Below, piece by piece: positions 48,535-61,248 of a stretch of 64,000 nt of DNA. The stretch's first letter is position 1, and every line of letters begins with the position of its first letter. The notes below the pieces were generated by a model, which did not search any database, was not told the origin of the DNA, and worked only from the letters and a program-made list of their open reading frames with translations. A program made the position numbers and the translations under genes. The stretch comes from Meiothermus ruber DSM 1279. Lineage in GTDB: Bacteria > Deinococcota > Deinococci > Deinococcales > Thermaceae. The DNA lies in contig NC_013946.1 in the NCBI RefSeq assembly GCF_000024425.1, positions 372,001 through 436,000 on the forward strand, written 5' to 3'.

Positions 48535-48570
48535 AAAAAAGCCGCTCAGGCTTTGCCCGAACGGCTTTTT
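48535..48570 (-). terminator. Original terminator of the tRNA-Pro locus
   Basis: On the minus strand GCCG and CGGC arms flanked by A-runs and T-runs form a hairpin just after the displaced tRNA 3' end. It now lies beyond the island, as expected for a chromosomal terminator separated from its gene by integration. Confidence 0.6.
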
Positions 48571-48572
48571 GC

Positions 48573-48618
48573 TTGGTCGAGGCGAGAGGATTTGAACCTC
48601 CGACCACACCCACCCCAA
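48573..48618. repeat. Left attachment repeat: 3' part of tRNA-Pro
   Basis: These 46 bp are identical to 61171-61216, which form the 3' end of the intact tRNA-Pro from the anticodon loop to CCA. After one mismatch a further GGT agrees. The copy has no 5' half, so it is not a working tRNA but the chromosomal 3' end displaced by integration. Confidence 0.9.
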
Positions 48619-48963
48619 GGGTATGTCGCACTCTTTTGGTGTTTTACGAGAAAGGTGGCGAGGTCGCATTTTTGCTTTTCTCAAGCTATAAAGCTGAAAT
48701 TTGTTCATCCGGTTTCATACTAGCACATACGACCTAAATCGAGTTCATACGGATGCGGTAACTCCCCGGTAACTCCCCTTGGTGTGAATGGAAGTTATAC
48801 CGACAATATCTGCATTTGCTAGATTGGCAACCCCAAAGAATGAGAACTCGAGACCATGTTCTTGTAGGGTTTTGTGGACAAATTCAAAGCCGAAGCTGGG
48901 AGGGGCGAGACTGAAGCTGGGCTCGTGAGGGCAACACAAGCTGTTGTTGACTATTAATCTTGT
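48619..48963. other. Left end of the island, no supported gene
   Basis: These 345 bp contain the left tandem 11-bp repeats and only a weak 64-codon frame on the minus strand (48745-48939) without family or good start. I see no integrase remnant. Confidence 0.5.
48756..48777. repeat. Tandem 11-bp repeats, left arm
   Basis: Two adjacent copies of CGGTAACTCCC lie 137 bp inside the left attachment repeat. The same tandem is present near the right end in the same orientation. Length and spacing fit arm-type binding sites of a tyrosine integrase. Confidence 0.65.
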
Positions 48964-49755
48964 TTAGTGAACCCGTGCTCTGGTAGTGGTGACTCCAAGA
49001 GGCAATAACTCTAAACGAAGTGGGTTCAGAATCTCTCTCCTTAGGCTTTCCTCTAATAAGTCCAGTTGTTCTTGGCTGGCTATCTTTGCGAAAGTATCTC
49101 GTGCTGCGCTGATGTACAGAATAAGCTGTTGAAGTTCTAGCATTTTGGCCAACTTAAAGCGGATAATGGCCCGGGTCTTCTCGAGCATGATAATTTTGCT
49201 CGCGAGACGTTCAATCTGATTAGACGCTTGTTCTGAGAAGTAGAGCAAATCGTTGAGTTCGTGGATTTCCTCACGTATCGCGGTAGCTTTTATTGGTTTT
49301 CCGACCTGTGCGAAATGGTTTAACTTGCGTTCCAGAGCTTTATATGCGTGATCTATTTCCTCGAGTAAGTTGGGTCGGGATGCATAGCGGTTTATGGCAG
49401 TCTCCAGAGCGCTTTTGACCACCGCCAGTTCGCGGTTGGTGGCGTGGTGCTCGTCTATTGTTTCAAGGATGCGATCGAGCAAAGTGGAGAAGTCATCGTA
49501 AACCAAACCGGAGTAGAGCCTGTGCTTCACAGAAGCTGTCATAGGGTCTTTACGCTTTCCCTGCTTAACCCGCTTGGGATAACCCGCGCCGTGATTGGGG
49601 CAGACCCGTAGCCCTCGTACTGCAGCCTTTTTGCACTGCTTGCCCGTGCTTTTCACAATCGCCTGACAACGGGGCGGGTGACCCCGCAGGTGGTCACAAT
49701 AGGGCTCAAATGCTTTGGCCGAACCTAGTGCACGGGCGATTCTTTGCTTGCCCAT
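48964..49755 (-). CDS. Mobile-element protein with CxnCxnCxxH-G motif
   Basis: The 263-residue protein has a small cysteine-rich start, RCQAIVKSTGKQCKKAAV with CPNHGAGYPK, that resembles the C-x10-C-x10-C-x2-H-G motif of HGGxG proteins in phages and integrative elements. Cysteines at residues 30, 41 and 52 and His55 could bind zinc. The rest is mostly helical with probable coiled coils. It is transcribed away from the large methyltransferase, so a repressor or DNA-binding role for the shared 113-bp promoter region is possible but unproven. Confidence 0.55.
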   Translation of the reverse strand: MGKQRIARALGSAKAFEPYCDHLRGHPPRCQAIVKSTGKQCKKAAVRGLRVCPNHGAGYPKRVKQGKRKDPMTASVKHRLYSGLVYDDFSTLLDRILETIDEHHATNRELAVVKSALETAINRYASRPNLLEEIDHAYKALERKLNHFAQVGKPIKATAIREEIHELNDLLYFSEQASNQIERLASKIIMLEKTRAIIRFKLAKMLELQQLILYISAARDTFAKIASQEQLDLLEESLRREILNPLRLELLPLGVTTTRARVH

Positions 49756-49868: not shown

Positions 49869-52800
49869 ATGTTGAATTTGTCAGAAGGTCAGACTGAATC
49901 TGTTCCCATTAGTTTGAGGAATCAAGAGGCCGAGCGTCTACGAGATTTTGATGGGTTGTTCCAAATTTACTTGGTGCGCTACAAAGCCTACCCACCCACA
50001 AAGCAAGTGGAGGCCTATCTGGCCAAAACAGGGAGTTCGGCTCTGGTGCTTTTTACAAGTGATGAAAAGAGCTTTGTTCTCTCTTATGTAGATGGTGATC
50101 GGGCTATCAATGCTCGAGCCCAAAAAGATTGGGTAGAGAACCTACTTAAAGACCTTCTGGAGCTTTATCAGGAAACGGGCGATGTACTGAAGCTGTCGGA
50201 GTCAGCTCAAGATGCCATTCATGCTCAGGCCGATGAAAATATAAATCGTCAGAAGCGCCCCTATCGTAACCAGGGGCTTTTTAGCGATCACTACCTAGAT
50301 ACCCGTCTCCGGGAGAGTTCGGAGTGGCTGGAGGATTCAGAGCCGCTAAGGAAGAGGCTGCTCGAGCTCTACAAGGACAAGGAAAGCCTCCTCAAAGTAG
50401 CTAATGAAGCCCAAACTGAAGATGAGTTTATCCGGCCCGTCCTCGAGTCCCTTGGCTTCGCTTACTGGGTGCAAGATACCACCAAAGCCACTGGTGGGCC
50501 TCAACGCCCAGACTACGTGCTCTACCCCGATGAGGGCACAAAGAGTAGAGCTGTTGTGCACAAAGCAAACGAGGCCAAGCGGTACGCCCCAGCCCTGGCC
50601 ATAGCCGAGGCCAAGTACTGGGGGCGTGACCTTGATGTGAAGCGAAAGGATGGCAGGGATCGTGTACAAAGCCCGGTCAGCCCATCCTTCCAGCTTAGTG
50701 ACTACCTTTCCTCTACGAGCCTGGAATGGGGCATTCTGACCAATGGCCAGGAATGGCGACTGTACTGGGGTAAAGCAGCCGATAAGCAGAAGCGCTACTT
50801 CGCAGTGGATCTGGTACAGGCCCTCCAGGATCCCGAGGCTTTCCGCTTCTTCTGGCTGTTCTTCCGTCGCGAGGCCTTTACAAAGGGCGCGCAGGGTAGC
50901 TTCCTTGGGCGCATTCTCGAGGGCAGCGAGCAGTACGGCTTGCGGGTGGGGAAAAGGCTCAAGGGCGTGGTCTTCGAACAGGTTTTCCCTCTTCTGGCCG
51001 AAGGGTTTCTGCGCTACCACAAGCAGGTGCTTAAGCAGCCGCCAGACAAGGCTATGTTGCAGGAGACCTACCGGGCCACCCTGAGCTTGCTCTACCGGCT
51101 CTTATTTCTGCTGTATGCCGAAGACCGCGACTTGCTTCCGGTTTCGGATACGTTGGGTTATCAGCAGTACAGCCTTTCACGCATCCGCCGCAACGTTGCC
51201 GAATGGCTAGATCAGGGTCGAGCTTACAGCGAGCAATCCTACAGTCTTTGGGAGCGCCTCAGCACCCTTTTCACCTTCATTGATAAGGGGGATTCTACGC
51301 TTAGGGTTCCTCCCTACAACGGAGGGCTCTTTAAGCCAGGGGTGTATCCTTTTCTAGACACCCACAAGGTAGCCGATGCCTTTCTGGCCCCCGCGCTGGA
51401 CAAACTGGCGCGTCAGGAGGACGAGGACGGCAAGCTCCGTTTTGTGGACTACAAATACCTTACGGTGCGGGAGCTAGGGGCCGTATACGAAGGGTTGCTG
51501 GAATTCAGCTTGAAGGTGGCGGAAGAAGACCTGGTGGTGGTAAAAGACGATGATCGCGAGGTCTATAAGCCAAAGGCGAAGCTCACTGCTAAGGAGAAGC
51601 CCGTCGCCGAAGTCCCCAAGGGCAAGCCCTATCTGGTCAACGACAAAACGGAGCGCCACGCCTCCGGCAGCTACTACACTCCCGACTATGTGGTGGAGTA
51701 CATCGTACGCAGGGCTTTGGAGCCGGTGGTCGCGAAGCGTAGAGAGGCGCTAGAGAAGGTTCTGACTGAGTACGCCCACTGGAGCAAGAAGCAGGATAAG
51801 CGCCCCACAAAGCAGAACGTTGAGCGGCTGACCGAGCTTCGCCACAAAGCGCTGGATACCCTCCTGGATGTCAAGGTGGTAGACCCGGCCATGGGCTCGG
51901 GCCACTTTCTGGTGGGGGCGGTGGACTTCCTTTCCGAGCGCTTTGCCAACCTGATCACCGAACTCAGGGCCGAACCCATTACCGATGCCCTAGCCGGGTT
52001 GCGGGATGAGATTAAGGCGCAGATGAAGCAGTACGGCCTCGAGCTGAAAGACGAACAACTCTCCGATATCAACCTGCTCAAGCGCATGGTGATGAAGCGC
52101 TGCGTCTTTGGGGTGGATCTCAACTCCATGGCTGTGGAACTGGCCAAGCTCTCGCTGTGGCTGGACGCCTTCACGGTAGGGGCGCCTCTTTCTTTCCTGG
52201 ATCATCACCTGCGCCACGGTAACAGCGTGCTGGGGGTGTCCAGGAGCGAGTTTGTGCGTTGGGTGGAGCGGGAGAACCCGGTTTGGCTATCCGAGCTCGA
52301 GCGTGAGGTGGAGGAGGCCACCCGCAAGGCCCAGGAGCTCCTAAGCGTGCGCGACCTCACCCCAGCCGAAGTGGAACTCTCCCAAAGCCTCTACGCCCAC
52401 TGGGAGTTCGAGTTTCCCGAGGTTTTCTTTGGCCCGGAACGCAAATACAACCCCGGCTTCGATGCGGTGATCGGCAACCCGCCCTATGTGCGCCAGGAGC
52501 AGCTTGGACCCAACAAGCCGTTTTTCGAGAAAGCCTACGAGAGTATTTACGCAGGAGCTGCCGACCTGTACACCTACTTCTTTGCTAGGGGCCTGGGGGT
52601 GCTCCGCGAGGGCGGACGGCTGGGGTTCATCTCTTCTCGCCAGTTCACCCGCGCGGCCTACGGCGAGGGCTTGCGGAAGCTGCTCACGGCCCACACTCTC
52701 CTAGAGATTACCGACTTCGGCGAGAACCCGGTCTTCGAGGGGGTGGGCACCTTCCCGGCCATCTTCATCCTGGAGAAGGGCCAACCAGCCTACCCCATCC

Positions 52801-54149
52801 GCTACAAGGCGGTGAGCAAGGCCGAGTTTTCGGCGCTGATGGAAAAGCCCTCAGAAGCTCGAGCGGAAGAGCTGGCCCAATTGGTGGAAGGCGGCCAGAA
52901 CCTAGGCCCGGAGGCTTTCCGCCCCGAGGGATGGACCCTGGGGAGCGCCGACGAGAACGCCATCCTGCGCAAGATGGAAGAGAACGGGGTGCCGCTTGGG
53001 GCGTATGTAGAGGGCATTTATTACGGTATCAAGACTGGCTTCAACGAGGCTTTCTTCATTGACGAGCCTACCCGCAACCGCCTGATCAAGGAGGACTCCA
53101 GGAGTGCCGAACTCATCAAGCCTCTGTTGGTGGGGGATGATGTGCGGCATTACTATGCTCGGTGGCCCAAAACTTACTTGATTTTGATACCAAGTAGCAG
53201 CCATTTCGACGAAGGTTCATGGGCGGATTCACAAATTCAGGAAGAGGCAGAACAAATCTTTAAGGAAACCTACCCTGCCATCTATAAACATCTGGTTTCC
53301 TGGAGAGATAAGCTGAAGGCAAGAAGTGATCAGGGGCGCTGGTGGTGGGAGCTTAGACCTTGCGCTTATTATCAACTCCTCGAGGCCCCCAAGATTGTGT
53401 ACCCCGAAATAGCTAAGGAACCGCGTTTCTATTTGGATTACAGAGGCTTCTATATCAATAAGAAACTCTTTTTCATTCCCCGAGCAGACTGGTATCTCCT
53501 GGCAGTGCTGAACTCCAGGGTGGCTTTTGGCATCCTTAAGCTCAGGCTATCTGCACTTGGCGATGCAGACGAAGGAGGCCGCTTAGAACTTCGAGCTGTC
53601 CACCTCCAGCACCTTCCCATCCCTAAAGTTCCCCACACCACCCAGGCCTCAGAACTGGAAATAGCCTTAGAGGAAGCTCGGAAACACTACGCTCAAGGGG
53701 AAGTTTCGGCAGCCTTGACCTGGGCTGAAAAGGAGCTGGTTGCGGGGTGCAGGGATACTGTGGCCGCCTTCCTGGGCTTCCTGGCCCAGGAGATGCAGCG
53801 CATGCAGGCCGAGCGGCTGTCGCTTGAGGGGGGCTGGCGAGGGTGGGTGGAGCACGCTTTTCAGGGCACAGGAAAGCTGGGTAAGGAATGGTTGGCGGAG
53901 GACTGGGCAAGGGAGGGGCTAGGGGTGGGTGTCGAAGCCATCACCGAGCGCTTCAAGGTGAAAAGGGTCAAGACCACCCCCCAGACCCTGGCCCAGCTCA
54001 AGATGCACACCCAGGAAACCCTCGACCAACTCCGCCCTCTTTACCAGCGCCTGGAAGCTACCGATCGGCTCATTGACCGGCTCGTGGCTCGGCTTTACGG
54101 GCTTACCGACGAGGAAGCAGAAAGGCTATGGGCTACCCCATCGTCATAG
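49869..54149 (+). CDS. Fused PD-(D/E)XK nuclease and Eco57I-type adenine methyltransferase
   Basis: The 1426-residue protein begins with about 170 residues of unknown fold. A nuclease-like region follows: TEDEFIRPVLESLGF, PDYVLYPD near 214 and IAEAKYWGRD with Glu-x-Lys near 246. After a helical part comes an N6-adenine methyltransferase with motif I DPAMGSGHFLVG near 673 and motif IV NPPY near 870. A TaqI-like target recognition domain (about 1050-1260) and a helical tail end the protein. This is the layout of type IIG enzymes and resembles BREX PglX in part. Its last 22 bp overlap the next gene. Confidence 0.85.
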   Translation: MLNLSEGQTESVPISLRNQEAERLRDFDGLFQIYLVRYKAYPPTKQVEAYLAKTGSSALVLFTSDEKSFVLSYVDGDRAINARAQKDWVENLLKDLLELYQETGDVLKLSESAQDAIHAQADENINRQKRPYRNQGLFSDHYLDTRLRESSEWLEDSEPLRKRLLELYKDKESLLKVANEAQTEDEFIRPVLESLGFAYWVQDTTKATGGPQRPDYVLYPDEGTKSRAVVHKANEAKRYAPALAIAEAKYWGRDLDVKRKDGRDRVQSPVSPSFQLSDYLSSTSLEWGILTNGQEWRLYWGKAADKQKRYFAVDLVQALQDPEAFRFFWLFFRREAFTKGAQGSFLGRILEGSEQYGLRVGKRLKGVVFEQVFPLLAEGFLRYHKQVLKQPPDKAMLQETYRATLSLLYRLLFLLYAEDRDLLPVSDTLGYQQYSLSRIRRNVAEWLDQGRAYSEQSYSLWERLSTLFTFIDKGDSTLRVPPYNGGLFKPGVYPFLDTHKVADAFLAPALDKLARQEDEDGKLRFVDYKYLTVRELGAVYEGLLEFSLKVAEEDLVVVKDDDREVYKPKAKLTAKEKPVAEVPKGKPYLVNDKTERHASGSYYTPDYVVEYIVRRALEPVVAKRREALEKVLTEYAHWSKKQDKRPTKQNVERLTELRHKALDTLLDVKVVDPAMGSGHFLVGAVDFLSERFANLITELRAEPITDALAGLRDEIKAQMKQYGLELKDEQLSDINLLKRMVMKRCVFGVDLNSMAVELAKLSLWLDAFTVGAPLSFLDHHLRHGNSVLGVSRSEFVRWVERENPVWLSELEREVEEATRKAQELLSVRDLTPAEVELSQSLYAHWEFEFPEVFFGPERKYNPGFDAVIGNPPYVRQEQLGPNKPFFEKAYESIYAGAADLYTYFFARGLGVLREGGRLGFISSRQFTRAAYGEGLRKLLTAHTLLEITDFGENPVFEGVGTFPAIFILEKGQPAYPIRYKAVSKAEFSALMEKPSEARAEELAQLVEGGQNLGPEAFRPEGWTLGSADENAILRKMEENGVPLGAYVEGIYYGIKTGFNEAFFIDEPTRNRLIKEDSRSAELIKPLLVGDDVRHYYARWPKTYLILIPSSSHFDEGSWADSQIQEEAEQIFKETYPAIYKHLVSWRDKLKARSDQGRWWWELRPCAYYQLLEAPKIVYPEIAKEPRFYLDYRGFYINKKLFFIPRADWYLLAVLNSRVAFGILKLRLSALGDADEGGRLELRAVHLQHLPIPKVPHTTQASELEIALEEARKHYAQGEVSAALTWAEKELVAGCRDTVAAFLGFLAQEMQRMQAERLSLEGGWRGWVEHAFQGTGKLGKEWLAEDWAREGLGVGVEAITERFKVKRVKTTPQTLAQLKMHTQETLDQLRPLYQRLEATDRLIDRLVARLYGLTDEEAERLWATPSS

Positions 54150-54679
54150 GGCGCTTTCGCGGAGAGGTTTTGCTTGACCTGGAGGGACTTTTCCTGCTGG
54201 TAAGCCTGAATTCATCTTGCTCAGAAGAGGAAATACTCTCCGATTTGAACAGCCTTCACCTGGTGGGGGTGCTGCTTTTACAGCAGAAAGCTTTATTTGT
54301 TGGAAGTTCGCGGGTTTTGTCAACCGATTGGAACCAGCCCTGGCTAGAGGGACTGTTGCGAATGGTTGAGGGGGCTGATCCGCTTCAGGCTGAGCGAATT
54401 GCGGAGCGGGTGTTCTTAAGGCGAATTTTCGCGAAAGGGCTACAGGGTTTATTGGAGCTAGAACGCCACATGCAGCGGCTGAAAAAGCATGCCAAGCAAG
54501 CAGAAGAAGACTGTCTTCATGCCGGTGCTTACGCTGAAGGTAATGAATGGAAGGCTTGGTTGCAAGAGATAGAGGACATTGAGCCTCGTTTGCGGAACCT
54601 TGAACTTACCTTGGGCCGCTTTGCCGTGCGGTTGGGTAACCGTTGGTTATGGGGGAGTGAGGATGACCAGAGTACCTAG
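54128..54679 (+). CDS. Island protein A, unknown; N-domain paralogue of its neighbour
   Basis: The 183-residue protein begins inside the end of the methyltransferase gene, so it is likely coupled to it. It belongs to no family I know. It shares with the next protein an N-terminal module: IGRFRGEVLLDLEGLF here against IGPYKGEVLLSLTGLF there, and WLEGLLRMVEGADPLQAERIAE against WMEGLIRQLEPLDPLSAPEIAE. The C-terminal half is helical and charged (LERHMQRLKKHAKQAEEDC), and the winged helix found in the neighbour is absent. It could be a specificity or assembly subunit. Confidence 0.7.
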   Translation: MGYPIVIGRFRGEVLLDLEGLFLLVSLNSSCSEEEILSDLNSLHLVGVLLLQQKALFVGSSRVLSTDWNQPWLEGLLRMVEGADPLQAERIAERVFLRRIFAKGLQGLLELERHMQRLKKHAKQAEEDCLHAGAYAEGNEWKAWLQEIEDIEPRLRNLELTLGRFAVRLGNRWLWGSEDDQST

Positions 54680-54745
54680 GTGCTTGGGACGATGTATATA
54701 CGGCGTCAGGATAGGTTACATCTTTATTTTTGAGGGAGTTCACCG

Positions 54746-55621
54746 ATGAGCCAACCATACTCCATAGGGCCCTATAAAGGGGAGGTGCTGCTTAGCTTAA
54801 CCGGCTTATTCCATGTGATTCGACTGATTCCGCCTTATCCACCCCGTGCAGTTCTCGAGCAAATCCTGAAGGAGCGGGCAATGCCCACTTTGGTGCAGTG
54901 GGATAACCAGGTGGGCCTGGTAGGGCCGGAGCAAACTCTGTGGGTAGAAGCCGAGCAATCGTGGATGGAAGGCTTGATCCGGCAACTGGAGCCGCTAGAC
55001 CCCCTCAGCGCGCCCGAGATCGCCGAGCAGGCCCTGCTAGAGAAGCTGGTGGAGAATGCTGGAAGCCGTCTGTGGGCTTTCCTGGATGATGTGAACATGC
55101 TGTTGACTCATGGCGAAATGGCGCTAGAGACGGCCCAGGCATCCCGCCGTTATGACCGGGTAGCTACCCTAGCCCAGTGGCTCGAGCGCCTGCTCAAGGT
55201 GCAGCAGAGCGGGGAAGCCCTAGCCGAGCTTTGGGGGGCTTTCTCTGGGAAAAAGCGAAGCATGCCCGCAAAGCATCCTTCAAAAAAAGCGCCAGTGCCT
55301 GATAAGACCCGCAAGCGAACCAAAGGTGCGGCCTTGCCACAAAAGGAGTACCGTTTGCCCATTTTGCGTGCGCTGGCAGAACTGGGGGGACGTGGAAAAA
55401 CTGCGGAGGTGCTGGACAGGGTTTATCTGCAACTGAAACATCTTTTTACCGACGGGGACTTGGAAAGGGCCTACGATGATCCCAGACGGGACGAACCGAT
55501 ATGGCGAAACCGAGCACGCTGGGAAATAGCTGCTTTGAAGGAAGAGAAGCTGGTGCAGAGCGGTGGCTATGGGGTACTGATTCTCACAGATAAAGGAGCA
55601 GCCTACCTGCACGGGGCTTAG
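54746..55621 (+). CDS. Island protein B: shared N-module plus Mrr-N-like winged helix
   Basis: The 291-residue protein has the module described for protein A (about residues 1-110), a helical spacer, a basic linker (PAKHPSKKAPVPDKTRKRTK) and a C-terminal domain from YRLPILRALAELGGRGKTAEVLDRV to GYGVLILTDKGAAYL. That last domain matches the N-terminal winged helix of Mrr restriction proteins, which contacts DNA. No Mrr nuclease domain follows. GAGGGAG precedes the ATG. A DNA-binding adaptor for the methyltransferase or helicase is a reasonable but unproven role. Confidence 0.75.
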   Translation: MSQPYSIGPYKGEVLLSLTGLFHVIRLIPPYPPRAVLEQILKERAMPTLVQWDNQVGLVGPEQTLWVEAEQSWMEGLIRQLEPLDPLSAPEIAEQALLEKLVENAGSRLWAFLDDVNMLLTHGEMALETAQASRRYDRVATLAQWLERLLKVQQSGEALAELWGAFSGKKRSMPAKHPSKKAPVPDKTRKRTKGAALPQKEYRLPILRALAELGGRGKTAEVLDRVYLQLKHLFTDGDLERAYDDPRRDEPIWRNRARWEIAALKEEKLVQSGGYGVLILTDKGAAYLHGA

Positions 55622-55632
55622 ATATTGTCAGA

Positions 55633-55662
55633 TTGGCAAGGAGCCTCGTTTCATATTACACT
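55633..55662 (+). promoter_or_regulatory. Internal promoter of the Fic gene
   Basis: TTGGCA (55633-55638), an 18-bp spacer and TACACT (55657-55662) lie six bases before the ATG at 55669, which suggests leaderless transcription independent of the upstream genes. Confidence 0.55.
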
Positions 55663-55668
55663 GCGGTT

Positions 55669-56787
55669 ATGCCGATAAGTAAGGGCAATATGGCCGATTC
55701 GGGTTTTGGCCCATCTGACATAGTGGCCGAACGAAAAGCCCTGCTGGAGCGGCTGGGAGGGCTTCCAGCCACCCTGCTCTCGGTACGCAACGAGGAGTGG
55801 TTGTACATGCTGCAGGAGGACACCCACCACTCCCTGGCCATCGAGGGGCATTTTGCGACCGAGCAGCAGCTCAAGGCGGTGCTGCAAGGGCGCAGGAGCG
55901 GCCCCGAGATCGTCAACTACTTTCGCACCGCGCAAAGCCTCTACGACCTGGCCCTGCAATACCACCTCGAGGGCCAGACCCACCTCGACCTGGCGCTGAT
56001 CCGCCACATCCACAGCGAACTCTGGCGCGACCTCGCACCCGACCGGGGGCGCTTTGCCTTGAACGGCGAGGCCCGGGTCATCCAGGGAGCCCAGGTGCGC
56101 CCGCCGGTTTACGACGTGGAGGCCTACATGCGGGCGTTCGTGCGGGTGACGCTGGAGCTGCTGCGTCAGTACCCCATTCTGGAGGCTCTGGCCCGCTCCC
56201 ATACCCTTTTCGAGGCCATCCACCCGTTCAAAGATGGCAACGGACGGGCCGGGCGGATTCTGCTGAGCTACCTGGCAATCAATCAGGGTTACGTGCCCAT
56301 CGTGATCAAAGGACTGCACCCCGAAGAGCGCAATGCCTATTACCAGGCCCTCGAGGCCGCCGACCGGGGGTTTCACCAGGGCTTCCCCCCACCCAAACCA
56401 CCCCTGCTGCTGGAGCGGCTGGAAGAAGGGAACTTTGCGCCGCTGGTGGGGTTGCTGCTCGAGGGGATGCTGCCCCGCCTGGATCAGACCATTGCCCTGT
56501 CCCTGGCCGCCCGGGTGCCCCTGCTGGGCCTGGAGGAGGTGGCCCGGGCGCTGGGGGTACCCCGTGGGACGCTGTACCAGTGGCGTAAGCGAGGGCGTCT
56601 GATCGTACTCAAGCCACAGGGGCGGCGTGCAGGGCTGCTCAGCCACCCCTGGCTCTTCCTGGGAACCCAGGACACCCCGGCCCAAACACCCGCGAACTTC
56701 CCACCCATCCGCGAAAACCAAGCAGGCCAGACCATGAGCCTGTTTGAAGCCGTGTTGCAAAACCCTACCGATACTCGTTTGGAGTGA
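55669..56787 (+). CDS. Fic-family AMP-transferase with inhibitory motif and HTH
   Basis: The 372-residue protein has a complete Fic motif, HPFKDGNGRAGR near residue 185, with catalytic histidine and anion-binding loop. Near residue 55 is SLAIEG, the (S/T)xxxE(G/N) inhibitory helix placed on the same chain before the Fic core, as in self-inhibited class II proteins. The C-terminus has a helix-turn-helix (LEEVARALGVPRGTLYQWRKRGRL). Fic proteins AMPylate hydroxyl side chains of targets. Its GC content is clearly higher than that of the helicase gene after it, and its stop overlaps that gene's ribosome-binding site. Confidence 0.85.
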   Translation: MPISKGNMADSGFGPSDIVAERKALLERLGGLPATLLSVRNEEWLYMLQEDTHHSLAIEGHFATEQQLKAVLQGRRSGPEIVNYFRTAQSLYDLALQYHLEGQTHLDLALIRHIHSELWRDLAPDRGRFALNGEARVIQGAQVRPPVYDVEAYMRAFVRVTLELLRQYPILEALARSHTLFEAIHPFKDGNGRAGRILLSYLAINQGYVPIVIKGLHPEERNAYYQALEAADRGFHQGFPPPKPPLLLERLEEGNFAPLVGLLLEGMLPRLDQTIALSLAARVPLLGLEEVARALGVPRGTLYQWRKRGRLIVLKPQGRRAGLLSHPWLFLGTQDTPAQTPANFPPIRENQAGQTMSLFEAVLQNPTDTRLE

Positions 56788-56789
56788 GT

Positions 56790-59700
56790 ATGTCTGCCAA
56801 CCTGCAATTACCCGACTTCATCGATAATGACCACCTTAAGCTTTCCGAGGCTCTGAATTTTCTGTTGCGAAGCCAACCCCAAGCCGACATTGCCAGTGGT
56901 TACTTCAATCTTGGAGGCTATGCCTTGGTCAAAGATGCGCTGGCTGAGATTCCCCGGCTGCGGATTTTACTCTCCAAAGAAGGAGGAATTGCAGCCGGGG
57001 AATTGTATCCAGCGGGCTTCCAAAAGGATTTGGCCAGTGCGAAGTTTGCTACACGCAACCGTGAACTGGCTAAAGAACTGGTACAACTTTTATTGCGGCC
57101 AGAGATAGAGGTGCGACTCTACACCAAGGGCTTTTTTCATGGCAAGGCCTATATCTTCGGAGATGTTGCTATCATCGGCTCTTCCAACTTTACCCATGCC
57201 GGGCTTACCGCAAACACCGAACTCAACTCGGTGCACAAACAGGGTTATGCGGCCCAAGCCGCACGGGAGTGGTTTGAGCGTTTTTGGGAGCAGTCTCAGG
57301 ATTATAAGCTCGAGCTGGTTAGGCTCTTGGAAGAGTCCAAGCTCATCAGTAGCGGATACAGCCCCTATCTGATTTTCCTAAAGAGCCTGTACGAATACTT
57401 CAAGGACGAACTTACCGTTGACCTAGAGAAAGGCCGCAACATTGGTAAGTCCCTGGTAGACCTAGCCGATTTTCAGCAGAAGGCCTTCGAGCGGGCCCTA
57501 AAGATTTTGGAGAAGTACGATGGGGTCTTTATCGCCGATTCGGTGGGTTTGGGTAAGACTTGGATCGGTAAGAAACTCCTGGAACACTTCGGCTACTTTC
57601 AGCGTAAGAAGTGCTTGGTAATCGCACCAGCTCAACTTTCCCAGATGTGGGAAGATGAACTCCGCTCCATCCAGGTAGCTGCACACGTTGTAAGTATGGA
57701 GAGCATGGGACGCTCGAACTTTGATGCGTCCTCATACTTTGATGCTGAGGTAGTGCTGGTTGACGAATCTCACAACTTTCGTAATTCCAACCAGCGATAT
57801 GCTGCTCTCTCTCGCATAATGAATGCTGGGCGGCGAAAGAAAGCAATAATGCTCACGGCAACCCCCATTAACAACTCTGTCTTCGACCTTTACAACCAGA
57901 TCATGCTCTTTGCCCGTGGAGAGCGTTACTTTGCCCGTGCTGGCATTCCTTATTTGCGTGGCTATTTCATCCGTGCTTTGGAGGATGGTGATCTGCTGAA
58001 TTTGCTTGAAGAGGTGATGGTTCGGCGTACTCGCCAGTTTGTAAAGCAGGAGTTTCCCGAGGCCGTCATCAATGGTGAACCGGTGCGCTTCCCTAGGCGT
58101 GAATTGCATACCGAGCGGTACGACCTAGAAGCTATTTATCCCGATCTCTACAAGCAAGTAGCTGTACGCTTCGAAGAGCTTATCTTGGCGGCCTATAATC
58201 CAGAAGCTTTTCTCGAGAGACCCACTGATAAGGAGGAGCTTGAACGTCAGCGCAACGAGGCTCTAATTGGTCTGATCAAAAGTTTGCTACTCAAGCGCTT
58301 TGAGTCAAGTGTGGAAGCATTTCGTATTTCATTGCGTCGTCAGATTGCCTTTCATGAGCGCTTTATTGAGGAACTTATGCATGGGCACCTCCTCTCGAGC
58401 GCCGATTACCGTCGCCTTATAGCCCTGGAGAACGAGGAGGAGGTCTCTTCTTCAGTACAATCCCTTCCCACTGTAGATGCTTCGGCGTACCGAGTATTGG
58501 AGCTGGCTCAGGTAGCAGCGGCAGACCTTGAGCACCTACGCGAGATGCTGAGAATGGTGGAACCTGTGGCCGTGGAAAACGACCCTAAGATAGCCAAGCT
58601 GATCGAGTTGATTCGCGAGAGACCAGGTAAAAAAATAGTTGTGTTTTCCTACTTTCAGGATACCATCCGCTATCTTGAGCAGGCCTTCCGAGAAACCTAT
58701 GCAGAATCCTTGCAGGCTGTGCGATGGGCGGTGGTGGATGGTAGCGTTCGCACCAAAGACCGTACAGACATTCTTAGGCGATTTGCGCCGAAATCTCAGA
58801 AGACCCAGGTTGCTCCCGAGGATGAGCTGGACCTGCTCCTTGCCACTGACGTATTTTCTGAAGGCCAGAACCTGCAAGATGCTGATACACTGATCAACTT
58901 CGACCTGCACTGGAACCCTACACGTATGATTCAAAGAGCCGGGCGTATTGACCGACTCGGCTCTCCGTTCGAGGTAATCCATATCCATAACTTTTTTCCC
59001 GAAGATGGCCTCGAGGAGATGCTGGGCTTGCTTGAGCGGCTAATGGAGAAGATTGTACAGATCGATAAAAACGTGGGTCTGGATGCTAGTATCCTGGGTG
59101 AGGTGATCAATCCCAAGACCTTTAATGCCTTGCGCCGCATCGAGCAAGAGGATGCCCGAATTGCCGATGAATTAGAGGCTGAGGCCGAGATTTCTAGTGA
59201 ATTCATGCGGGCCTTGCTTTCTACGTATCTGCAAAAATCTGGAGCAGAACGGCTTGAGGCTATTCCCTATGGGGTCCACAGTGGTATGGCAGGGAGAGGA
59301 CGGCGAGGGATTTTTTTTCACTTCAAAGTAGGAGATGAGCATATTTGGCGGTTCTATGACGTGGATAAGAGGGAAATTCTTGACTCCAAGTATCGTATAT
59401 ATAACCTCATCCAGTGCGAAGAACAAACCCCAAGAGTAGATGCCGATTATAATGTTGACGACATTCTCGCTGAGGTAAGTCGACACCTGCTTGAGGATTT
59501 AAACATCCAAAATGCCGTTCAAGTGGATACGCTTCCCAAAGCCCAGCGTGAGGTTCTGACCGCTCTTAGGGGATTAGCCCGGCACCCACAGATAGATCGT
59601 CAAGAATTGATCGAACTGTTAAAGAATCTCAATCAGCCACTTTCACGAGTGCTGGTGCGTGAGCTCGAGTCTATTCATAAGGCGTATGAAGCCCAACCAA

Positions 59701-59840
59701 TGGAACTCGTGAAAGCCCTTAGAGCTTTTGTAGAGCATTATTACCTTACCCAAACGGATCAATCTGCGCAAGCAAATCGTCGTTTTAGTGAGGAAGATCT
59801 AGAACTGGTCGTTTATTTGACGCTAAGTGCAACGCAGTAA
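56790..59840 (+). CDS. PLD-nuclease-like and SNF2 helicase fusion protein
   Basis: The 1016-residue protein opens with a phospholipase D-type module carrying one HKD half-site, HGKAYIF near residue 117 followed by GSSNFTHAGL, then a complete superfamily 2 motor. Its motifs are Walker A GLGKTWIGKK near 252, DESH near 324, LTATPINN near 355, SYFQDT, TDVFSEGQNLQDADTLINFD and the arginine finger in QRAGRIDRLG near 714. A single HKD half-site would need a dimer to cut. It translocates on DNA by family. The ATG at 56790 follows GGAG by five bases. IS4 begins ten bases after its stop. Confidence 0.88.
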   Translation: MSANLQLPDFIDNDHLKLSEALNFLLRSQPQADIASGYFNLGGYALVKDALAEIPRLRILLSKEGGIAAGELYPAGFQKDLASAKFATRNRELAKELVQLLLRPEIEVRLYTKGFFHGKAYIFGDVAIIGSSNFTHAGLTANTELNSVHKQGYAAQAAREWFERFWEQSQDYKLELVRLLEESKLISSGYSPYLIFLKSLYEYFKDELTVDLEKGRNIGKSLVDLADFQQKAFERALKILEKYDGVFIADSVGLGKTWIGKKLLEHFGYFQRKKCLVIAPAQLSQMWEDELRSIQVAAHVVSMESMGRSNFDASSYFDAEVVLVDESHNFRNSNQRYAALSRIMNAGRRKKAIMLTATPINNSVFDLYNQIMLFARGERYFARAGIPYLRGYFIRALEDGDLLNLLEEVMVRRTRQFVKQEFPEAVINGEPVRFPRRELHTERYDLEAIYPDLYKQVAVRFEELILAAYNPEAFLERPTDKEELERQRNEALIGLIKSLLLKRFESSVEAFRISLRRQIAFHERFIEELMHGHLLSSADYRRLIALENEEEVSSSVQSLPTVDASAYRVLELAQVAAADLEHLREMLRMVEPVAVENDPKIAKLIELIRERPGKKIVVFSYFQDTIRYLEQAFRETYAESLQAVRWAVVDGSVRTKDRTDILRRFAPKSQKTQVAPEDELDLLLATDVFSEGQNLQDADTLINFDLHWNPTRMIQRAGRIDRLGSPFEVIHIHNFFPEDGLEEMLGLLERLMEKIVQIDKNVGLDASILGEVINPKTFNALRRIEQEDARIADELEAEAEISSEFMRALLSTYLQKSGAERLEAIPYGVHSGMAGRGRRGIFFHFKVGDEHIWRFYDVDKREILDSKYRIYNLIQCEEQTPRVDADYNVDDILAEVSRHLLEDLNIQNAVQVDTLPKAQREVLTALRGLARHPQIDRQELIELLKNLNQPLSRVLVRELESIHKAYEAQPMELVKALRAFVEHYYLTQTDQSAQANRRFSEEDLELVVYLTLSATQ

Positions 59841-59849
59841 GCTCAAACC

Positions 59850-60990
59850 CTAGGTACATGACAAAACTTGCAAGAAGCAGGTAGGAGAGGATAAGAATAG
59901 GGACTGCCCCACCAGAGGTAGTCCCATGCATCATCATAGCGAACTCATCGAAGTTCTACGACCCCATCTGAAGTGGCATCGCGCCAGACTGGATTTTCTG
60001 TCGGCCTTTGTGCTGGCTTTGATCCGAGTCCGGAGTGTCAACCTGGCCCAGATCGCCCTGGCCTTGAACCCCTGGGTGCACATAGCCTCCAACTACCGTC
60101 GCTGTCAAAGGTTCCTGGCCGAGTTCAGGTTGCAGCAGGAAGTCATCGGACGGCTGATCTTGAAGCTCTTGCCACAAGACCCGGCGCACAAGCTGGTTTT
60201 GAGCCTGGATCGTACCGAGTGGACCTTGGGTCAGGCCAGCATCAACCTGCTGTTCATTGGAGTGGCCCATCAGGGGGTAGCCTACCCCCTGGTGTGGTGC
60301 TTCCTGGGTAAGGCCGGTAGCAGTAATCTGCAGGAGCGACTGGGCTTGCTTCGACGGCTGCTCACGTTCTTACCCAAAGAGCGCATCCAGTCCCTGTGTG
60401 CGGATCGGGAGTTTGCCTGTACCGGTTTTCTGCGCTACCTGCGCTGGCAGCAACTGCCCTACACCCTGCGCATCAAAGCGGGGAACCGGGTAACCTACAA
60501 GGGCCGCAGCCGACCCGTCCAGCAGTTGTTCCGACATCTGGACTACGGGGCGTGGGAAGCCTTACCTAAACCGGTCAAACTGTGGGGGCAACCCACCTAC
60601 CTGATGGGCAGTCGTTTGCGAAAGGGGGAGTACCTGCTGCTGATTACTGAGGCGGAGCCGGAGCGGGCCCCTGCCCGCTATGCCCGGCGGTGGGAGATCG
60701 AGACCCTCTTCAAGGCTTGCAAATCGCAGGGCTTCGACTTCGAATCCACCCACCTGACTCGGGCTGAACGGATTGAGTCGCTGGTTGCATTGATGAGCAT
60801 CGCTCTAGTCTGGGCGCATAGGGTTGGTGAATGGCGTCTACAAACCCAGCCCATCCCCATCAAAAACCATGCGCGCAAGCTCTACTCCACCTTCCGCTAT
60901 GGGCTTGACTATCTACGTCAACTTCTCTTTGCCCCAGAAGCTAGGAAAGCAGAACTGTACGCTTGTGTGAGGCTTTTGTCGTGTACCTAG
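59850..60990 (+). mobile_element. IS4-family insertion sequence
   Basis: Terminal inverted repeats CTAGGTACATGACAAAA (59850-59866) and its mirror ending at 60990 agree at 16 of 17 positions. The element is about 1.14 kb with one transposase whose stop codon lies inside the right repeat. No target-site duplication is evident. It contains no CTCGAG site, unlike almost every other kilobase of the window. Confidence 0.85.
59926..60990 (+). CDS. IS4-family transposase
   Basis: The 354-residue DDE transposase has the first aspartate in LSLDRTEWTLG, the second in LCADREF, and the family's Y-(2)-R-(3)-E-(6)-K signature as YARRWEIETLFKACK in the C-terminal part. All three catalytic residues are present, so the enzyme may be active. 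The ATG at 59926 gives full family length. Codon use is nearer to the host than to the neighbouring island genes, consistent with a resident insertion sequence. Confidence 0.92.
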   Translation: MHHHSELIEVLRPHLKWHRARLDFLSAFVLALIRVRSVNLAQIALALNPWVHIASNYRRCQRFLAEFRLQQEVIGRLILKLLPQDPAHKLVLSLDRTEWTLGQASINLLFIGVAHQGVAYPLVWCFLGKAGSSNLQERLGLLRRLLTFLPKERIQSLCADREFACTGFLRYLRWQQLPYTLRIKAGNRVTYKGRSRPVQQLFRHLDYGAWEALPKPVKLWGQPTYLMGSRLRKGEYLLLITEAEPERAPARYARRWEIETLFKACKSQGFDFESTHLTRAERIESLVALMSIALVWAHRVGEWRLQTQPIPIKNHARKLYSTFRYGLDYLRQLLFAPEARKAELYACVRLLSCT

Positions 60991-61101: not shown

Positions 61102-61170
61102 AAATACAAAGAAAGCCGTTCAGGGCTGATTTGACGTGGGTCAATAATCTTGTCCTGAACGGCTTTTCTT

Positions 61171-61216
61171 TTGGTCGAGGCGAGAGGATTTGAACCTCCG
61201 ACCACACCCACCCCAA
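61171..61216. repeat. Right attachment repeat within tRNA-Pro
   Basis: This is the copy of the 46-bp repeat that completes the functional tRNA. By the usual scheme this 3' half came with the element and replaced the chromosomal one. Confidence 0.9.
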
Positions 61217-61248
61217 AGGTGTGCGCTACCAGGCTGCGCTACGCCTCG
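61172..61248 (-). tRNA. tRNA-Pro (GGG)
   Basis: A 77-nt cloverleaf on the minus strand: acceptor CGAGGCG paired with CGCCTCG, D-arm GCGC-AGCCTGGTA-GCGC, anticodon arm CACCT-TTGGGGT-GGGTG with anticodon GGG, T-arm GGAGGTTCAAATCCTCT and encoded CCA. C1 and the anticodon agree with bacterial tRNA-Pro. It is the integration site of the island and remains intact. Confidence 0.95.

Follow-up and report, generated by a model that had tools for sequence, protein, structure and literature searches.

A tRNA-Pro island of Meiothermus ruber carrying a widely conserved methyltransferase and PLD-SNF2 helicase pair, a variable middle slot and a shared N-terminal module

The genome of Meiothermus ruber DSM 1279 consists of a single contig of 3,097,457 bp, from which a stretch of 64,000 nucleotides (positions 372,001 to 436,000 of NC_013946.1; hereafter the window) was analysed. 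An island of ~12.6 kb, inserted in a tRNA-Pro gene, lies within this window and has the following features, given in window coordinates:

48551–48625, minus strand: left repeat, a partial, attachment-site-like copy of the 3' part of tRNA-Pro(GGG)
48964–49755, minus strand: island cargo protein of 263 aa with a weak HGGxSTG-type N-terminal motif (NCBIfam HGG_STG 0.0035, below the cut-off)
49869–54149, plus strand: gene 1, predicted type IIG-like nuclease with adenine-N6 methyltransferase and TaqI_C target recognition domain (TRD); core gene
49869–50243, plus strand: N-terminal module of gene 1 (residues 1–125), homologous to genes 2 and 3 (hmmsearch, hhalign)
54128–54679, plus strand: gene 2, a stand-alone copy of the module (183 aa), matching no family above the cut-off
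54746–55621, plus strand: gene 3, the module fused to an Mrr_N winged helix (Pfam Mrr_N 4.3e-10 at residues 201–288)
55633–56787, plus strand: gene 4, Fic protein of the self-inhibited class II with an HTH_17 domain, a predicted AMPylase; recruited cargo
56784–59840, plus strand: gene 5, PLD half-site nuclease with SNF2 motor; core gene
59926–60990, plus strand: IS transposase (DDE_Tnp_1, Pfam 6e-11), inside the island
61149–61223, minus strand: right repeat, overlapping the intact tRNA-Pro(GGG) gene (61172–61248)

The five numbered genes all read on the plus strand, with overlaps between genes 1 and 2 and between genes 4 and 5 and with gaps of 66 and 11 bp at the remaining junctions, so that the closely spaced gene run described in an earlier note on this DNA is borne out. 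The same holds for the tRNA island that the note proposed, as the 3' part of tRNA-Pro(GGG) recurs at its two ends as a direct repeat of 75 bp (89%), and the same tRNA-Pro site occurs without an insert in three genomes of the genus (G027, G039, and G043). The DNA of these three relatives aligns to both flanks of the window, in G039 and G043 up to position 48625 and again from 61150, and the neighbouring chromosomal genes are 0.57 kb (G027) and 0.93 kb (G039) apart, compared with 13.1 kb here. The GC content of the island is 54.5%, as against 64.3% for the rest of the window. A domain search identified no integrase among the seven large ORFs of the island, the 263-aa protein had no further family match above the cut-off, and no near match to the island DNA was present in the plasmid collection.

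Pfam upheld the domain assignments of the note for genes 1, 3, 4, and 5, with matches to Eco57I/N6_Mtase/TaqI_C, Mrr_N, Fic with HTH_17, and PLDc_2 with SNF2 and Helicase_C, respectively. Gene 1 matches Eco57I (1e-36), N6_Mtase, and TaqI_C, as well as the PADLOC profiles REase_MTase_IIG and DrmMI, and harbors the motifs DPAMGSG at residue 672 and NPPY at 870 together with a PD...ExK-like stretch; a weak HSDR_N match at residues 209–299 is below the cut-off. Hence, gene 1 appears to unite a nuclease, predicted from the weak match and the motif, an N6 methyltransferase, and a TRD in one chain. In this architecture and in its REase_MTase_IIG match, gene 1 resembles type IIG restriction-modification enzymes, while its extra N-terminal module sets it apart from them. 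In a genome of the same family (G059, L069:240-1429), the N-terminus of a gene 1 relative lies 15 bp from a C-terminal fragment of gene 5, which is a remnant left by a deletion across the operon.

Gene 5 contains a PLD motif (HxK...GSSN...E) and all helicase motifs, and the HKD, GSSN, and Glu residues as well as all helicase motifs are nearly invariant in 90 relatives. Its best match is the PADLOC model C3a139 (HKD+Snf2), with an E-value of 5e-70 over positions 4–889 of the 948-residue profile, i.e. near full-length. Gene 4 matches Pfam Fic (1.7e-13) and the PADLOC profiles PDC-S04 and SoFic, and carries HPFKDGNGR at residue 197 and the inhibitory SLAIEG at residues 67–72, in agreement with the self-inhibited Fic protein suggested by the note; having both the HPFx(D/E)GNGR and the N-terminal (S/T)xxxE(G/N) motif, the protein is predicted to belong to class II. 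The N-terminal module that the note saw in genes 2 and 3 reflects true paralogy (28% identity, E 7e-12), and gene 1 begins with a third copy, overlooked in the note (hhalign E 2.4e-10).

A scan of a genome collection with relatives of gene 5 yielded the 80 loci most similar to gene 5, many of them from metagenome bins, which are spread over cyanobacteria, Chloroflexi, Planctomycetes, Deltaproteobacteria, Nitrospirae, Thermus, and archaea, the latter including Lokiarchaeota, Woesearchaeota, and Thermoplasmata. Upstream sequence amounted to 3 kb or more in 53 usable loci, and 42/53 of these encode an Eco57I-type methyltransferase in the orientation of the helicase and no more than 5 kb upstream of it. 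This rate is valid for this set, since the loci were chosen as the 80 closest to gene 5. The pairing is found in Cyanobacteria, Chloroflexi, Planctomycetes, Deltaproteobacteria, and several archaea, with no gene of at least 100 aa between the two partners in 11 loci; the same arrangement is present on plasmid records of Deinococcus, Nostoc, Planktothrix, and Rhodococcus, and the gene order is reversed in L072, L121, L125, and L198. The core of the operon is gene 1 and gene 5, a widely conserved pair. On the Lactococcus cremoris plasmid pJM1F (L198:5425-10230), an inverted spare TaqI-type specificity fragment is located by an Mpi-type invertase gene, beside helicase and methyltransferase, a layout that suggests phase-variable target specificity.

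The genes between the two core genes differ widely. The Thermaceae relative L067 has no gene between gene 1, present as two ORFs, and gene 5, and Thermus caliditerrae (L065) has a single gene 2-like gene between the core genes, the only stand-alone relative of gene 2 to be found; no relative of gene 2 or gene 3 was detected outside Thermaceae. Elsewhere, the slot is occupied by an HTH_3-M78 and DUF4411 gene pair, the first gene of which matches the RosmerTA protein RmrA, or by AAA_15-type, AAA_14-DUF4143, SocA-like, DUF488, or DUF262 proteins. The RosmerTA-like pair is nested between methyltransferase and helicase in L127, L128, L138, L142, L145, and L158, in most of these six loci within 12 bp of the helicase start; it is an archaeal middle gene that shows the likeness to RmrA, whereas RosmerTA is absent from the window. 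The Fic gene has relatives of 52–85% identity in Meiothermus and Thermus, mostly in one shared chromosomal context, and the other operon genes are absent near Fic in every relative whose surroundings were examined. Its GC content is host-like (64%), compared with 50–57% for genes 1, 2, 3, and 5, and the sole other match to the Fic profile among the helicase loci (L128) is outside the slot and on the opposite strand. The Fic gene is thus a separate recruit, with an origin independent of the other operon genes, and the findings illustrate how the space between the core pair of a restriction operon fills up with additional genes, toxin-antitoxin genes among them, and that a Fic gene from the chromosome can be captured there.

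Most methyltransferases of the family are headed by a longer version of the module (~165 residues), which also forms the N-terminus of nine cyanobacterial proteins encoded directly upstream of the helicase (L100, L102, L104, L105, L111, L113, L115, L119, and L132). Sigma-70 regions 1.2–4 were identified in 8/8 of the cyanobacterial module proteins scanned; L115 is outside these eight and corresponds to L100 in length and type. The L100 and L115 proteins have 2397–2398 aa, that of L100 with a further ATPase-like domain, and several of the cyanobacterial sigma-type loci have no methyltransferase within reach. Either a methyltransferase or a sigma-type module protein precedes the helicase in 50/53 loci, with L119 counted by hand as its gene overlaps the helicase start beyond the permitted overlap. 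On plasmid p4 of Planktothrix agardhii (L200:1421-11294), a module-methyltransferase, two other genes, a module-sigma-70 protein, and a PLD-SNF2 helicase follow one another in one run, a close parallel to the layout in the window. The sigma-type partner matches MzaA of the Mza system in the sigma region; it differs in covering only positions 420–660 of the 683-residue profile and in its N-terminus, and Mza is absent from the window.

The Thermaceae module gave no significant match to other methyltransferases by direct hmmsearch, hence profile–profile comparison with bridge sequences was needed to connect the two module types. Bridge methyltransferases (Phycisphaerales, L088) link the Thermaceae module to the longer one with E-values of 2e-7 and 3e-11, the first of these alignments extending past the module, while the direct match between the Thermaceae and the general module profile is modest (1e-4, probability 56; reversed-sequence control 0.1). 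AlphaFold models of both types have the same order of elements, namely two strands, a helix, three strands, and two helices, and the Thermaceae copies are without the first, helical part of the longer module. Gene 2 is modeled as a beta-alpha-beta sheet with a long helical hairpin (pLDDT 88); a PDB fold search with gene 2 and the sigma-type module returned no significant match, so the fold of the module gives no function. In the divergent branch of the family (L152–L158 and L197–L199) the module was not detected.

No partner of the module-bearing proteins is constant except the PLD-SNF2 protein, and outside the module these proteins are usually DNA-reading (TRD, winged helix, or sigma regions), for which reason a docking piece is the simplest reading of the module. 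From this co-occurrence and the shared module we infer that the module would dock DNA readers to the nuclease-motor; alternatively, it may bind something else, e.g. DNA or a ligand.

Taken together, the locus is probably an ATP-dependent restriction-modification island, in which genes 1 and 5 are coupled through the module. Gene 1 would read a target site and methylate its occurrences in the host DNA, and, judging from its predicted N-terminal nuclease, may also nick or cut by itself. Unmethylated invading DNA bound by gene 1 would recruit gene 5; the SNF2 motor of gene 5 would travel on this DNA, and cutting would fall to its PLD half-site, made complete by dimerisation. The N-terminal module of gene 1 would couple methyltransferase to helicase. 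By analogy, the pair may work like a split type I/ISP restriction enzyme. Gene 3, consisting of module and winged helix, could serve as an alternative DNA-reading adaptor and gene 2, the module alone, as a competitor or scaffold. Fic would be an add-on acquired separately into the variable slot, perhaps as a second line of defence, at a position that toxin-antitoxin or other defence genes take in other lineages. The anti-phage effect, the recruitment, the order of cutting, and any role of Fic are read from gene content and context, and a restriction-like, probably anti-phage locus, as envisaged in the note, is the interpretation that these favor, with DISARM and BREX assignments failing and no hsdS in the locus.

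The note had regarded the five genes as one system, and their co-directional arrangement, the short gaps, the overlaps at both ends, and the fact that the last Fic codon overlaps the start of gene 5 would all suit a dedicated five-gene defence system with Fic as an integral effector or regulator. However, the five-gene set was found in no other genome, neither in phylum searches with genes 1, 3, 4, and 5 nor among the 80 helicase loci, and the five-gene unit was rejected on these grounds: only genes 1 and 5 are widely paired, relatives of genes 2 and 3 turned up in Thermaceae only, L067 dispenses with the middle genes, and Fic stands alone elsewhere in Meiothermus and Thermus and departs from the other four genes in GC content. 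With the middle slot so variable across the family, we regard such a system as distinctly improbable. Also unlikely, albeit less so, is a reading in which gene 1 acts by itself as a type IIG restriction enzyme, while gene 5, a separate anti-phage helicase-nuclease, simply accompanies it in defence islands. Type IIG enzymes cut alone, and gene 1 is predicted to combine cleavage, methylation, and target recognition in a single polypeptide; classical enzymes of this type are not known to have a helicase partner. Yet genes 1 and 5 keep a common strand and order in bacteria and archaea alike and are often direct neighbours, which goes beyond loose islanding, and the methyltransferase of the archaeal locus L145, although scoring on type IIG models, is not reached by the profile of the gene 1 nuclease region.

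Decay of a DISARM class 1 or BREX-related locus, with loss of its other genes, would fit the matches of gene 1 to the DrmMI and of gene 5 to the DrmD profile, but this is the least probable of the readings considered, and a very improbable one. Gene 5 reaches 170.6 bits, far from the DrmD equivalog cut-off of 610, and is fitted far better by C3a139 than by DrmD (5e-70 vs. 6e-44); DUF499 and PglZ are absent genome-wide, with no PF04465 and no PF08665 match, respectively, and the same pair recurs intact without those genes in many phyla. The PglX equivalog assignment of BREX likewise failed (85 bits, cut-off 500), and no large ORF of the island has DrmA or DrmB as its best match, so the absence of BREX (pglZ) and DISARM (drmA, drmB) hallmarks reported in the note is confirmed and membership in either system is rejected on gene content and cut-offs.

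One PLD-SNF2 nuclease-motor might be common to interchangeable adaptors with the same docking module, namely methyltransferase-TRD, Mrr_N winged helix, and sigma-70 regions 1.2–4, a proposal that we put forward tentatively and with more doubt than conviction. On this view, the methyltransferase-TRD would read unmethylated sites, and promoters on incoming DNA could be what the cyanobacterial sigma-70 proteins recognize. Restriction specificity would thereby become a plug-and-play property, with a sigma factor in the part of a nuclease targeting subunit. Should docking hold, a widespread bacterial and archaeal restriction machine would have a common plug for several target readers, offering a testable new way of aiming a nuclease.

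In comparison with known systems, the term "undescribed" chosen in the note is too strong, as PADLOC includes the C3a139 helicase model and type IIG models for gene 1, and Type-2 BREX-related (BR) systems are similar. C3a139, compared here as a protein model, is the best match of gene 5 as well as of its archaeal relative in L145 (positions 3–777 of 948); no paper naming this model was found in the literature search, and no Druantia model is among the best PADLOC matches listed. DISARM class 1 (drmMI, drmD, drmA, drmB, and drmC) likewise combines an adenine methyltransferase, a SNF2 helicase, and PLD activity, whereas the island lacks drmA and drmB and has the PLD domain fused to the helicase. 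Proteins with an MZB domain are encoded elsewhere in the genome, the nearest ~135 kb away; outside the window, at G000:C1:1250757-1256236, an MZB-domain protein is encoded 4 kb from a relative of gene 1 (1360 aa), and the two may represent a DISARM locus of this genome. Type-2 BR systems, described in 2026, contain an N6-methyltransferase and an HKD nuclease N-terminal on a Swi2/Snf2 helicase, for which a restriction-modification-like logic was proposed, and BR systems are defined by the DUF499 ATPase, nearly always together with DUF3780 (PMC12839542). The locus described here shares the HKD nuclease N-terminal to SNF2 and the accompanying N6-methyltransferase with them, whereas neither DUF499 nor DUF3780 is matched on the island. 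In a literature search on the gene pair and on Fic in such operons, with subscription journals mostly outside its coverage, this BREX-related study was the only close relative. The locus hence resembles Type-2 BR and DISARM class 1, yet differs from both in the gene content by which they are defined, and its new elements are the shared module and the sigma-type partners.
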